DNA of 64,000 nt, taken from positions 558,001 through 622,000 of the forward strand of contig NZ_JAUZDX010000001.1 of the NCBI RefSeq assembly GCF_030704685.1, read 5' to 3'. Shown here one piece after another: positions 38,092-42,175 of this stretch. This stretch comes from Acidovorax sp. A1169. GTDB lineage: Bacteria; Pseudomonadota; Gammaproteobacteria; Burkholderiales; Burkholderiaceae_C. The notes beneath the pieces were generated by a model that worked only from the letters and a program-made list of their open reading frames with translations, made no database searches and was not told the DNA's origin. The position numbers and the translations under genes are program-made. Each line of letters starts with the position of its first letter. The stretch's first letter is position 1.

Positions 38092-39272
38092 GGCGCGGCA
38101 TTGCGGGTAGGAGCGGAAGGAGGCGGGGTAGAGGAGGGGGACGTCGCGGGCCGGCCATGCCGCCTCGGGCGCCGGGATACGCGGGCCGGTGCACCCTGCA
38201 CGGGCAGGGAGATGCGCACCTGGTAGAGGCCATCGAGCACCCCGGCGCTGAATTCACCCTGCACATCATGCAGCAGGGCCAGGCGCGCGCGCACATTGGC
38301 CAGGGCGATGCCGTGGCCGCGCGGCACGTCGTGGTAGCGGATGTCGCTGGCGGGCAGGGTGTTGGTGATGCGTACCACCACGCGGTTGCCGCGCAGCTCG
38401 GTCATCACCTTGAGCTTGCCGCCGCGCGGGCTGGGTTCCACGCCGTGCTTGACGGCATTCTCCACCAGCGGCTGCAGCAGCAGGGGCGGCAGGCGGGCGC
38501 TGTCGGTGCGCGGGTCCAGGCTCCACTGCACCTGCAGGCGCTTGCCAAAGCGCACCTCCTCGATGCCCAGGTAGCGGCGCGCCAGGGTGATCTCCTCGGC
38601 CAGCGTGGTCGATTCGCCCTGCTCGACGAGCGCCACGCGGAACAGGTCGCTCAGGTCTTCCAGCAGCGATTCGGCCTTGGCGGGCTCCTTGCGCACCAGC
38701 GCGATCGCGCTGTTGAGCGTGTTGAACAGAAAGTGCGGGCGAATGCGCGACTGCAGCTCGGTCAGGCGTGCCGTGGTGGCCGCCGGGGTGCGCCCGCGCG
38801 CACGCAGGACCAGGGCCGCAACCAGCAGGGCCGCGAGCAGGGCCCCCGTGGCGGCACTGGCCACCCAGGGCGAGCGCTCGGCCACGCCGGCCAGCGTGAG
38901 CATGGCGCAGGCGTACAGGCCGGCCAGTGCCCCCAGGGCCACGCCGGCCGCATACTGCGGGCCGGTGCGCAGGTTCTGCAGCACCGTCTTCAAGCTGCAG
39001 GCCGTGATCAGCCAGGCCAGCGTGGCCGGCAGGGCGCCGCCCGTAACCAGGGCCATGCTGGCCAGCCACTGTGCCGGGTTCTGGGCGCCGAACAGGGTGC
39101 CCACGCCCACCACGACCTCGACGAACAGCACGGCCCGCAGCACCACGCCAACCTGGCAGGCGTCGAACACCAGCGCCCTTCCGGCAGGGGGCTGGCCACT
39201 GCGCGAAGGGCCTCTGGACGGGTCCGATTCGGCGTCGGGAGGCGGGGTCGATAAAATTTGGGTGTTTTGCAT
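38088..39272 (-). CDS. Sensor histidine kinase, AlgZ/LytS-like (His_kinase family)
   Basis: The 394-residue membrane protein has four hydrophobic segments between residues 40 and 157 and no large periplasmic domain. The phosphoacceptor box [14 protein letters not shown] (His180) and the ATP-binding N box [13 protein letters not shown] with [13 protein letters not shown] identify the LytS/AlgZ type of kinase. The C-terminal tail is Arg/Pro/Ser-rich. It pairs with the overlapping downstream AlgR-like regulator. It is divergent from argH, with 51 bases between start codons. Confidence 0.9.
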
Positions 39273-39323
39273 TGCGGCATCCGGGTGTTCCGGGTGTCAG
39301 AACTACCGGATTATTGCCCTCCC

Positions 39324-40793
<1,470 letters not shown>

Positions 40794-40844: not shown

Positions 40845-40847
40845 GCA

Positions 40848-40875
40848 TGACAGCGCAGCAGCGTGGGGCTACGAT
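40848..40875 (+). promoter_or_regulatory. Sigma-70 promoter for the third Bug receptor gene, upstream of the MITE
   Basis: TGACAG (40848-40853) and TACGAT (40870-40875) are 16 bases apart. The predicted transcription start near 40882 is about a dozen bases before the left end of the mobile element, so the element would be transcribed as part of the 5' leader. No better promoter was found between the element and ATG 41189. Confidence 0.5.
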
Positions 40876-40894
40876 CCTCGCCTGTTGCATCTAA

Positions 40895-41161
40895 GAACGT
40901 GTTTACGATCTTTATGGGGCCGCGTTGGGGCGCAATCGGGATGAGTGGATGCTTCGGGTGCGCCGCATGGGCTCATGCCCATGCAAGCAGCCGGAGCGTC
41001 CAATCGCCCGATTTCGCCCCAACCCTTCGGGCAAGTGCCTTGCCGGGCGGTCTGCTGCCTTGCGGCGCTTGTTGATAGCCGAGCTATCAACTGCGCACCG
41101 CGCCTTGCACCCCATCCCGGCAAGGCTCATGCGCGGCCCCATAAAGATCGTAAACACGTTC
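40895..41161. mobile_element. MITE (267 bp) with 30 bp perfect terminal inverted repeats and nested hairpins
   Basis: The terminal repeats 40895-40924 and 41132-41161 are perfect 30-base inverted copies, beginning GAACGTGTTTACGATC. The element is flanked by TAA on both sides (40892-40894 and 41162-41164), which fits a 3-base target duplication as made by some IS5-family (IS1031-type) transposases; CTAA would also fit. No transposase frame exists. Inside are two lobes: 40925-40940 with 41007-41022 (16 bases, one mismatch) around an 8 bp hairpin at 40965-40984, and 41038-41047 with 41116-41125 (10 bases, perfect) around a 9 bp hairpin at 41071-41091. Short frames inside it are artefacts. Confidence 0.85.
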
Positions 41162-41188
41162 TAATTACCTATCCGCTGGAGCCCTCGC

Positions 41189-42175
41189 ATGACCTCGCCT
41201 CGCCGCCGCCTTCTCGTCAATACCCTGCGCACCGGTGCGCTGCTCCTGGGCCTTGCGGCTGCAGGCCTGGCATCGGCCCAGCCCAAGCCGATCCGGTTGC
41301 TGGTGGGTTTCCCTGCTGGCGGTGGTACCGATGCCATCGCGCGCACCCTGGCCGAAAAGCTCAAGGACGAGCTCGGCACCTCGGTGGTGGTCGAGAACAA
41401 GCCCGGCGCAGGCGGGCAGATCGCCGCCCAGACCCTCAAGGCCGGCCCGGCGGATGGCACGGTGTTGTTTCTTACCCACGACCACACCATCTCCATCCTG
41501 CCCCAGGTGGTGAAGAACGCCGGCTTCGATCCCGCGCGTGATTTCATCCCAGTGGTCGGCATCGCCACCTTCGTCAATGCCTTCGCCGTCTCGGGTGGCA
41601 CGCCCGCCAAGTCGTTTGCCGAGTACGTCAGCTGGGTCAAGAGCGCCGGTGGCGGCAAGGGCGCCGTGGGTATCCCTGCCCCGGCATCTACCCCGGAATT
41701 CCTGGTGAAGCTGGTGGGCGGCAAGTTCGGCATCGACCTGGTGTCGGCACCCTACCGCGGCAGTGCGCCCATGATGGCCGACATGCTGGGCAACCAGATC
41801 GGTGCCGGCGTGGCCTCCATCCCCGATTTCATCGAGAACCACAAGGCTGGCAAGGTGCGCGTGGTGGCCGTGCTGGGCAAGGCCCGCCAGGCCGCCATGC
41901 CCGATGTGCCCACCTTCGACGAACTGGGCCTCAAGGGCTTCGAGGACCTGCCCTACTACGGCATCTATGCCCCCACCGGCACGCCGCAGAAGTTCGTCAC
42001 GGATTTCTCCAACGCCGTGGCCAAGGTGATCGCCATGCCCGAGGTGCGCGACCACCTCACGGCCATGGGCCTGACCGTGGGCCATATGTCGCCCACGCAG
42101 TTCGCCACGCGCGAAAAGGCCTATACCGCCGCCTGGACCAAGATCATCAAGGACACCGGCTTTGTGGCCCAGTAA
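41189..42175 (+). CDS. Tripartite tricarboxylate transporter receptor (Bug/TctC family), copy 3
   Basis: The 328-residue exported binding protein has an RRR-containing signal peptide (TGALLLGLAAAGLASAQ), then PIRLLVGFPAGGGTDAIART and VVVENKPGAGGQIAAQTLKA, the family ligand loops. It differs from copies 1 and 2 at 10288-12427 and is not linked to tctAB genes. ATG 41189 is 27 bases from the right end of the MITE and has GGAG nine bases upstream. Its expression probably passes through the MITE hairpins. Confidence 0.9.
   Translation: MTSPRRRLLVNTLRTGALLLGLAAAGLASAQPKPIRLLVGFPAGGGTDAIARTLAEKLKDELGTSVVVENKPGAGGQIAAQTLKAGPADGTVLFLTHDHTISILPQVVKNAGFDPARDFIPVVGIATFVNAFAVSGGTPAKSFAEYVSWVKSAGGGKGAVGIPAPASTPEFLVKLVGGKFGIDLVSAPYRGSAPMMADMLGNQIGAGVASIPDFIENHKAGKVRVVAVLGKARQAAMPDVPTFDELGLKGFEDLPYYGIYAPTGTPQKFVTDFSNAVAKVIAMPEVRDHLTAMGLTVGHMSPTQFATREKAYTAAWTKIIKDTGFVAQ

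Follow-up and report, generated by a model that had tools for sequence, protein, structure and literature searches.

A 267-bp element that separates a promoter-like site from the start codon of a Bug-type receptor gene in Acidovorax sp. A1169 is best explained, with a probability of roughly 80%, as a MITE of the genus that was mobilised in trans and recently inserted into the leader of the gene, whose core is an inverted dimer, whose arms are kept alike by copying and whose fold is probably maintained at the DNA level. All coordinates refer to the window, i.e. the whole 64,000-nucleotide stretch of DNA that was analysed.

An element in the leader of a Bug receptor gene

The element occupies positions 40895-41161. 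Its outer arms (40895-40924 and 41132-41161) are perfect inverted repeats of 30 bp, or 31 bp when the flanking A/T at 40894/41162 is counted. Such a 267-bp element with perfect 30-bp ends, a TAA duplication and two lobes had been described in the original prediction, and it is borne out by the sequence and the fold (z of -18.5). The features of the locus are as follows, R1 being a covariance model of lobe 2.

39258-40793, + strand: argH, argininosuccinate lyase, the upstream neighbour (TIGR00838, 597 bits); open reading frame as listed, the true start of which may be internal
40847-40875, + strand: promoter-like site ATGACA-17-TACGAT (9/12 matches; 1 found against 0.1 expected; boxes kept in two element-free relatives)
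40892-40894: left target-site duplication TAA (from the sequence; a single TGA at the same spot in L194, by eye)
40895-41161, + strand: MITE with IS5-type ends (ends, TAA pair, copies, fold, empty sites)
40895-40924, + strand: left outer arm, a perfect 30-bp terminal inverted repeat, its outer part resembling IS ends (L177/L189 and one end of L190)
40924-41030, - strand: lobe 1, the core unit in inverted sense (minus-strand match of R1: 51.8 bits, E 3.7e-9)
40965-40984, + strand: apical hairpin of lobe 1, GCATGGGC-TCAT-GCCCATGC (fold; nearly invariant across 51 copies)
41023-41031, + strand: small inter-lobe hairpin CCCTTCGGG (fold; both counted pairs conserved)
41024-41132, + strand: lobe 2, the core unit and source of R1 (115.9 bits by construction; covariation 0.310 against 0.101 shuffled)
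41056-41063, + strand: conserved motif, wider consensus GGCGTTGC, here TGCCTTGC (GTTGC part 96-100% per column in 52 units)
41071-41091, + strand: apical hairpin of lobe 2, GTTGATAGC-CGA-GCTATCAAC (stem covaries)
41100-41109, + strand: conserved motif GCGCCTTGCA (73-100% per column in 52 units; GCGCCT 94-100%)
41132-41161, - strand: right outer arm, terminal inverted repeat (arm comparison)
41162-41164: right target-site duplication TAA (from the sequence)
41178-41181, + strand: GGAG, the likely Shine-Dalgarno sequence of the Bug gene, outside the element (from the sequence; unpaired with the element in the leader fold)
41189-42175, + strand: Bug/TctC-type solute receptor gene, 328 aa, ATG at 41189 (PF03401, E 3.2e-47)

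The fold of 40894-41162 was predicted and compared with those of 200 dinucleotide shuffles. An energy of -193 kcal/mol was obtained, against -107.9 (sd 4.6) for the shuffles, none of which was as good (z -18.45). The three-armed transcript that had been expected agrees with this predicted structure. The opposite strand folded nearly as strongly (z -15.9). A terminator-like match lies in the element at 41053-41067, with the tail CTTGTTGATA (two in the region, 0.4 expected). An open reading frame of at least 90 aa (40945-41541, + strand) begins in the element and enters the Bug gene out of frame.

The promoter had been given as TGACAG-16-TACGAT. A candidate site is present there, with its first box shifted by one, and its boxes are conserved in relatives. 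The coordinates and the PF03401 match support the claim that the insertion lies between a plausible promoter and the ATG of a Bug receptor; no NCBIfam family matched the receptor protein.

The receptor gene was present in 36 of the 40 genomes of the genus, the own genome included (35 others). Thirty receptor loci, the own and those of 29 relatives, were compared. argH lay upstream in all 30, and the element preceded the receptor gene at the own locus only, in none of the 29 relatives examined. Comparison with strains lacking the insert had been proposed as a check. L194 and L195, the two closest relatives (91% identity of the receptor gene), have the site without the element and keep both promoter boxes. 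The genes flanking the site are 121 and 124 bp apart in these two, compared with 395 bp in the window. The joint in L194 reads GCATC-TGA-TTACC, at the place where the window has TAA, the element and TAA (by eye). Judged from these sequences, the insertion at the Bug locus is recent and local; the element would have entered a TNA target in a short 5' leader, between the promoter and the Bug start codon.

In a fold model of the leader, the element forms a self-contained structure. For the window as for L194, the model has GGAG mostly paired, its partners being downstream coding sequence in the former and upstream leader sequence in the latter. It never pairs with the element, so the model predicts that the ribosome-binding site is neither hidden nor freed by it. 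Reckoned from the position of the candidate promoter, the leader would be lengthened from about 37 to about 307 nt. Since the fold is self-closed and the ribosome-binding site lies outside, the element most probably has no effect or a mildly negative one: the Bug mRNA would carry extra RNA and may be cut by RNase III. Attenuation and RNase III cutting by the element are plausible by analogy with Correia elements. The insertion itself was probably an ordinary recent MITE event of small effect, and probably of little consequence for the Bug gene of the window.

Copies, neighbours and an IS5-family partner

A search of the own genome for other copies of 40895-41161 had been proposed as a check: six more, full or partial, were found there at 84-87% identity. 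When 60 genomes were searched by blastn, with up to 12 candidates scored per genome, 32 matched, namely the own genome and 31 of 35 others of Acidovorax; none of the 24 genomes from other families of the order did. Across the family, copies were present in at least 38 of 399 genomes and at least 22 of 141 genera, lower bounds because two candidates were scored per genome. Acidovorax, Paracidovorax, Curvibacter, Simplicispira and Variovorax were among the matches listed. A Comamonas plasmid carried a 70.7% copy, and the phage records searched gave no match to the element.

The genus set comprised 147 matches (7 cut at contig ends), 128 of them unique. The arm and strand analyses in the genus used 94 copies with both ends and the usual length, and the rare-base analysis used 89, one of each orthologous pair being left out. 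For the neighbours 122 copies were taken, from which 14 at locus edges were set aside, leaving 108. Family-wide fold and conservation were analysed in 51 copies, L230 and L248 being left out.

Two further stretches may be described here. A 51-bp palindrome (L377; G000:C45, about 216551-216601) consists of the two arms only, AGAGCCTG..CAGGCTCT; this ultra-short relative adjoins a probable tRNA gene (by eye). A 247-bp stretch (L378; G000:C6, 66987-67233) has the same kind of ends, and its interior was unmatched by R1 at E 1. It is possibly another passenger between like ends, or else a decayed copy.

Among 116 unique full copies, 72 had TNA at both flanks and the other 44 lacked it on one side or both; the triplets were identical in 55 of the 116. 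Neighbouring genes, as called by a simple codon-usage caller, were in tandem for 64 of the 108 copies, convergent for 22 and divergent for 22. Orientation was split 51:57, 5' and 3' neighbours were equal in number, and no 5' preference was seen among the 108. At 22 of the 108 3' junctions the target triplet was the stop codon of the neighbour (13 TAA, 8 TGA and 1 TAG; e.g. L126, L140, L111, L089). Because the target is TNA and its duplication restores the stop, insertions at stop codons would be harmless. For 7 of the 108, the open reading frame of the 3' neighbour ended more than 3 nt inside the element. No insertion within a gene appeared among the neighbours called; as the element contains stops and splits any reading frame that it enters, such a listing of neighbours cannot show the absence of in-gene insertions.

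These counts bear on the suggestion that the Bug gene has come to use the element as a regulator in its leader, be it an attenuator, an RNase III switch or a source of small RNA. Its place directly behind a conserved promoter-like site would suit such a role, but the insertion is missing at the locus in 29 of 29 relatives examined, and the 108 copies have no preference of orientation or position. The predicted transcript is extremely stable and includes a terminator-like match; however, the tail of this inner match (CTTGTTGATA) has no clean T run, and GGAG is unpaired with the element in the fold model. Correia and ERIC elements influence mRNAs, according to PMC2229807 and PMC10969869, which speaks for a regulator; the columns of the element have no G-U bias, though its cells lean to G-U (see below), which speaks against one. 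Adoption as a Bug regulator, as proposed in the original prediction, now appears very improbable.

A recent insertion of a MITE is the reading that we prefer, and a partner IS was looked for. PF13340 transposase genes were found in 22 of the 40 genus genomes, 20 of them above the family cut-off. One congener (G022) carries an 876-bp element with the ends GAACCTGTTCAAAATCTTTT and GAACCTGTTCAAGATCTTTT and a TTA duplication (L177/L189). Its ends, GAACCTGTTCAA.., match those of the MITE. The element belongs to the IS5 family (NF033580, 152 bits, cut-off 110; also PF13340 and PF01609), and its two reading frames meet near a run of A, the run being seen by eye. At L190 one end, GAACGTGTTTACGATCTT, is of the window's own type. 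We take a TNA duplication to be that of the IS1031-type group of the IS5 family, with which the TTA at L177/L189 agrees. It may be added that at L177 (1124-2271, in G022) a MITE copy (1124-1392) is followed by the IS5-family element (1396-2271), with TTA between them.

Hence a full IS5-family element with the same ends, for which a search had been proposed, exists in a congener, but none was found in the own genome, where the ends were absent from all six PF13340/PF01609 loci. As no IS with matching ends was found there, the mobilising enzyme would be missing, lost or unassembled in that genome. Among 15 genomes of the order or family, 13 of them having other ends, 8 gave PF01609 matches, and 0 of 30 loci carried the ends tested.

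The likeness of the outer arm to the ends of the partner IS suggests that the window MITE is IS5-connected. We infer that it is a non-autonomous Acidovorax element whose ends are recognised by an IS5-family transposase, by which it was moved in trans. Its identity as a MITE, claimed at the outset, is supported by the perfect ends, the TAA duplications, the empty sites, the dispersed copies and the lack of a transposase of its own within 267 bp. Like other IS5-family-derived MITEs, it is short and non-coding, with IS5-like terminal inverted repeats, TNA duplication and many intergenic copies. Unlike them, it has an interior that is more widely conserved than its ends and forms a folded inverted dimer. 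No description of this element was found among the openly licensed papers searched, a scope outside which most subscription papers fall; a count of terms in the 2024 review PMC10969869 gave no 'Acidovorax', 'Comamon' or 'Burkholder'. Absence from the literature searched is weak evidence for novelty.

A folded core with unlike ends

Within the family, different genera have kept the sequence of the lobes, and 50 of 104 pairs exhibited at least two Watson-Crick types. For R1, the alignment of which used 35 of the 51 listed units, covariation was 0.310 compared with 0.101 for shuffled alignments, and 96.3% of cells were paired. On the opposite strand, R1 also matched the window at lobe 1 (51.8 bits, E 3.7e-9), which indicates that the element is an inverted dimer of a unit of about 107 nt. 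Since the core unit is a hairpin, R1 gives 34.2 bits even to lobe 2 read as its own reverse complement.

R1 was searched in the order and the class, with up to 9 or 10 candidates scored per genome; the E-values, roughly calibrated, apply to single genomes. With E 1e-5 as the cut-off, matches were obtained in 99 of 399 genomes of the order (55/159 genera) and in 61 of 369 genomes of the class (49/272 genera). Three of the 24 other-family genomes that were negative by blastn were positive with R1 (G042, G049, G057). In a control on 30 RNase P loci a single weak match appeared, at 24.5 bits; the class loci examined scored at least 56 bits. The weak match (L259, 1821-1928) lies just downstream of the RNase P gene of the own genome and carries CGTCGTTG and CCGCCTAG; it is either a decayed copy or due to chance.

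At 38 of 53 loci R1 detected an adjacent inverted second unit, with a score of at least 40 bits at 31 of these, the weaker matches being near the level of a bare hairpin; the count covers 53 of 55 loci, L288 and L292 being left out. The 52 units compared (51 order and class loci, and the window) were selected by a model that rewards the conserved blocks, and in them GCGTTGC and GCGCCTTG were conserved at 88% or more in all columns, bar one of GCGTTGC (75%). The interior is thus an inverted dimer of a folded unit of about 107 nt, which recurs in the order and class at a near-constant element size with unlike ends.

Flanking inverted repeats were found at 52 of the 55 order and class loci, all with scores of at least 13, a value reached by none of 300 null pairs (a flank against the shuffled flank of another locus). 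Ends and lengths were analysed for these 52 loci, L288, L292 and L363 being without ends. The element measured 258-274 bp in 43 of the 52, with a median of 268. Single linkage sorted the ends into 18 clusters, the representatives of which were 43.6% identical at the best offset, as against 41.4% with their letters shuffled. Between end clusters the core was 58% identical, and its blocks GTTGC and GCGCCT were 94-100% conserved.

Two explanations were weighed for this. Each element may have co-diverged with its own IS partner, with no exchange of ends, until the ends could no longer be aligned. The near-constant length and layout are consistent with this, as is the match of two end classes to IS5-family (PF13340) elements: besides that of the window, the class AGGGCGTGTTAACACT has counterparts among the PF13340 elements of the genus, at L174, L175 and L188 and, less closely, at L164 and L185. 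The ends of PF13340 elements are also distantly alike by eye (GAACCTGTT, GGGCGTGTT). For the remaining end classes, no partner IS was found among the loci examined. However, three kinds of ends occur on units within the own genome, where two single-unit elements of 162 bp have further types of ends (the L376 pair is identical at 14/16 only), and the end clusters are barely more alike than shuffled letters when the core is 58% identical between them. Co-divergence is thus a serious contender, to which we give somewhat less than even odds; exchange of the ends, rather than divergence beyond recognition, is slightly favoured.

Other folded repeats were compared with the element. The Correia elements of Neisseria (CREE/NEMIS) are likewise highly folded MITEs, and copies in L313/L315 carry GCGTTGC..CGCCTTG and CTGCGGC..CGCCTTG, which resemble the core unit. 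They are about 107 or 155 bp long. They have TATAGTGGATTA ends, which those of the window element do not resemble, and by eye their motifs stand in direct, not inverted, order, without the apical hairpin. The 26-bp Correia repeat ends are absent from the window element, and R1 had no match in the Correia copies at E 10. The resemblance in shared heptamers may be regarded as a lead, not as membership. ERIC/IRU sequences of enterobacteria are also folded intergenic repeats; they are 127 bp long with 7-bp ends according to PMC2229807, and the likeness is one of description only.

Mirrored arms and the strand of the fold

The two arms of a copy resembled each other more than they resembled those of other copies. 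Over 19 nt, 18.37 positions were identical within a copy compared with 14.87 between copies, and 51 of 94 copies were perfect. With 30-nt arms, none of 2000 permutations was as high as the observed value. The 19-nt version was used for these means because a bulge of one base near position 27 and a G-G mismatch at position 20 disturb the ungapped 30-nt comparison. Rare arm bases (89 copies) were mirrored in 12 cases and one-armed in 16, with 0.08 mirrored cases expected if the arms were independent. Seven of the 12 were private to one copy, and 3 of the 12 occurred in the single copy L016.

Six insertion sites were common to two genomes, and at four of them the two copies had diverged by 12-20 substitutions. 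Among these four pairs there were 9 two-sided changes, 8 of them Watson-Crick, and 18 one-sided changes at paired positions. Two of the two-sided changes fall at arm positions 21 and 22. One arm would serve as the pattern from which the other is copied, and the symmetry would thereby be preserved; template switching at the hairpin as the DNA is replicated is the simplest route. Hairpin template switching, or quasipalindrome correction, predicts such two-sided, mirrored multi-base compensatory changes in stems, according to PMC8794818. It is described there for RNA genes, whereas the arms of the MITE lie more than 200 nt apart and are joined by two lobes.

Matched arms would also be expected if transposases select for matched ends. 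The outermost 12 bp are indeed the best kept and match IS ends, and the mirrored rare bases all lie at positions 8-19, inside the IS-like part. However, 7 of the 12 are absent from every other copy, and two-sided changes have arisen in the four shared-site pairs although an inserted copy need not transpose. Selection of this kind is rather unlikely as the explanation in place of arm-to-arm copying; part of the mirroring may be due to it or to conversion by other copies.

The apical stem of lobe 2 (41071-41091 and its copies) exists in at least four versions, TGG/CCA, TTG/CAA, CCG/CGG and CCA/TGG, beside ATAGC. L076 and L145, which have a common insertion site, show a simultaneous difference of three neighbouring pairs in this stem. 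Short-hairpin cases could be due to conversion by another copy.

To distinguish an RNA fold from a DNA fold, mispairs were counted on the premise that a stem kept for RNA tolerates G-U on one strand but not A-C. A first count was strongly RNA-like (lobes: 335 and 189 G-U, compared with 58 and 48 A-C) and was rejected: its pairs came from the + strand fold only, which admits G-U but never A-C and so biases the count. The counts given here are for pairs found in the folds of both strands, in a structure derived from the copies themselves.

In the 51 family copies, columns with more G-U and columns with more A-C stood at 30:33. As a control, RNase P was treated in the same manner in 30 genomes of that family and gave 10:1 at a pairing cut-off of 50% and 18:3 at 30%, and the difference between element and RNase P columns was significant in both cases (Fisher p 0.009 and 0.002, respectively). 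By cells, G-U and A-C were 124:88 overall, 47:20 in lobe 1 and 45:31 in lobe 2. For 67 genus representatives, the columns were 8:12 in the arms and 12:9 and 11:11 in the lobes, and the cells 33:42 in the arms and 55:40 and 72:24 in the lobes, the last being lobe 2. Since few columns make lobe 2 lean, the column result was taken as the better guide. By this test with its control, the cells being less clear, the fold is probably kept at the DNA level and not as RNA of one strand.

The opposite case, that the core is conserved as a structured RNA, e.g. an RNase III substrate or a mobile non-coding RNA, draws on its strong covariation and on the conserved motifs GTTGC and GCGCCTTG. Of the two strands, the + strand also gave the more stable fold in most copies, namely 80 of 94 in the genus and 38 of 51 across the family (RNase P 28/30), and G-U exceeds A-C by cells. 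Set against these are the lack of a G-U excess by columns where RNase P has one, and a rough alignment of the 52 wider units, in which 75 G-U and 79 A-C cells were accompanied by 288 other mispairs. No Rfam family matched at gathering level, the one match having 25 bits against a cut-off of 80. Moreover, the lobes are one unit in opposite senses, so that a transcript would contain one sense and one antisense unit. Conservation as an RNA is rather improbable, some RNA role being conceivable, and maintenance of the fold in DNA is the reading that we retain.

The element family is of more interest than the insertion, its arms mirroring themselves and its folded core extending across the class with unlike ends. 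It is by the ends that MITEs of bacteria are generally identified, the interior being regarded as filler. In the present family, interior and total length recur in the class and the ends do not, so MITE families treated as separate may be one. We infer a MITE superfamily that would be defined by its core and not by its ends, with exchange of the latter and a role for the former. It is conceivable, though we put it at a little below an even chance, that the core is a lasting selfish unit that spreads in the class through local IS ends and transposases, hairpin copying changing both ends together, and that Correia elements are perhaps a reduced branch of it. The arms of the MITE, with private mirrored changes more than 200 nt apart, offer naturally occurring data on the maintenance of perfect long palindromes in bacteria.
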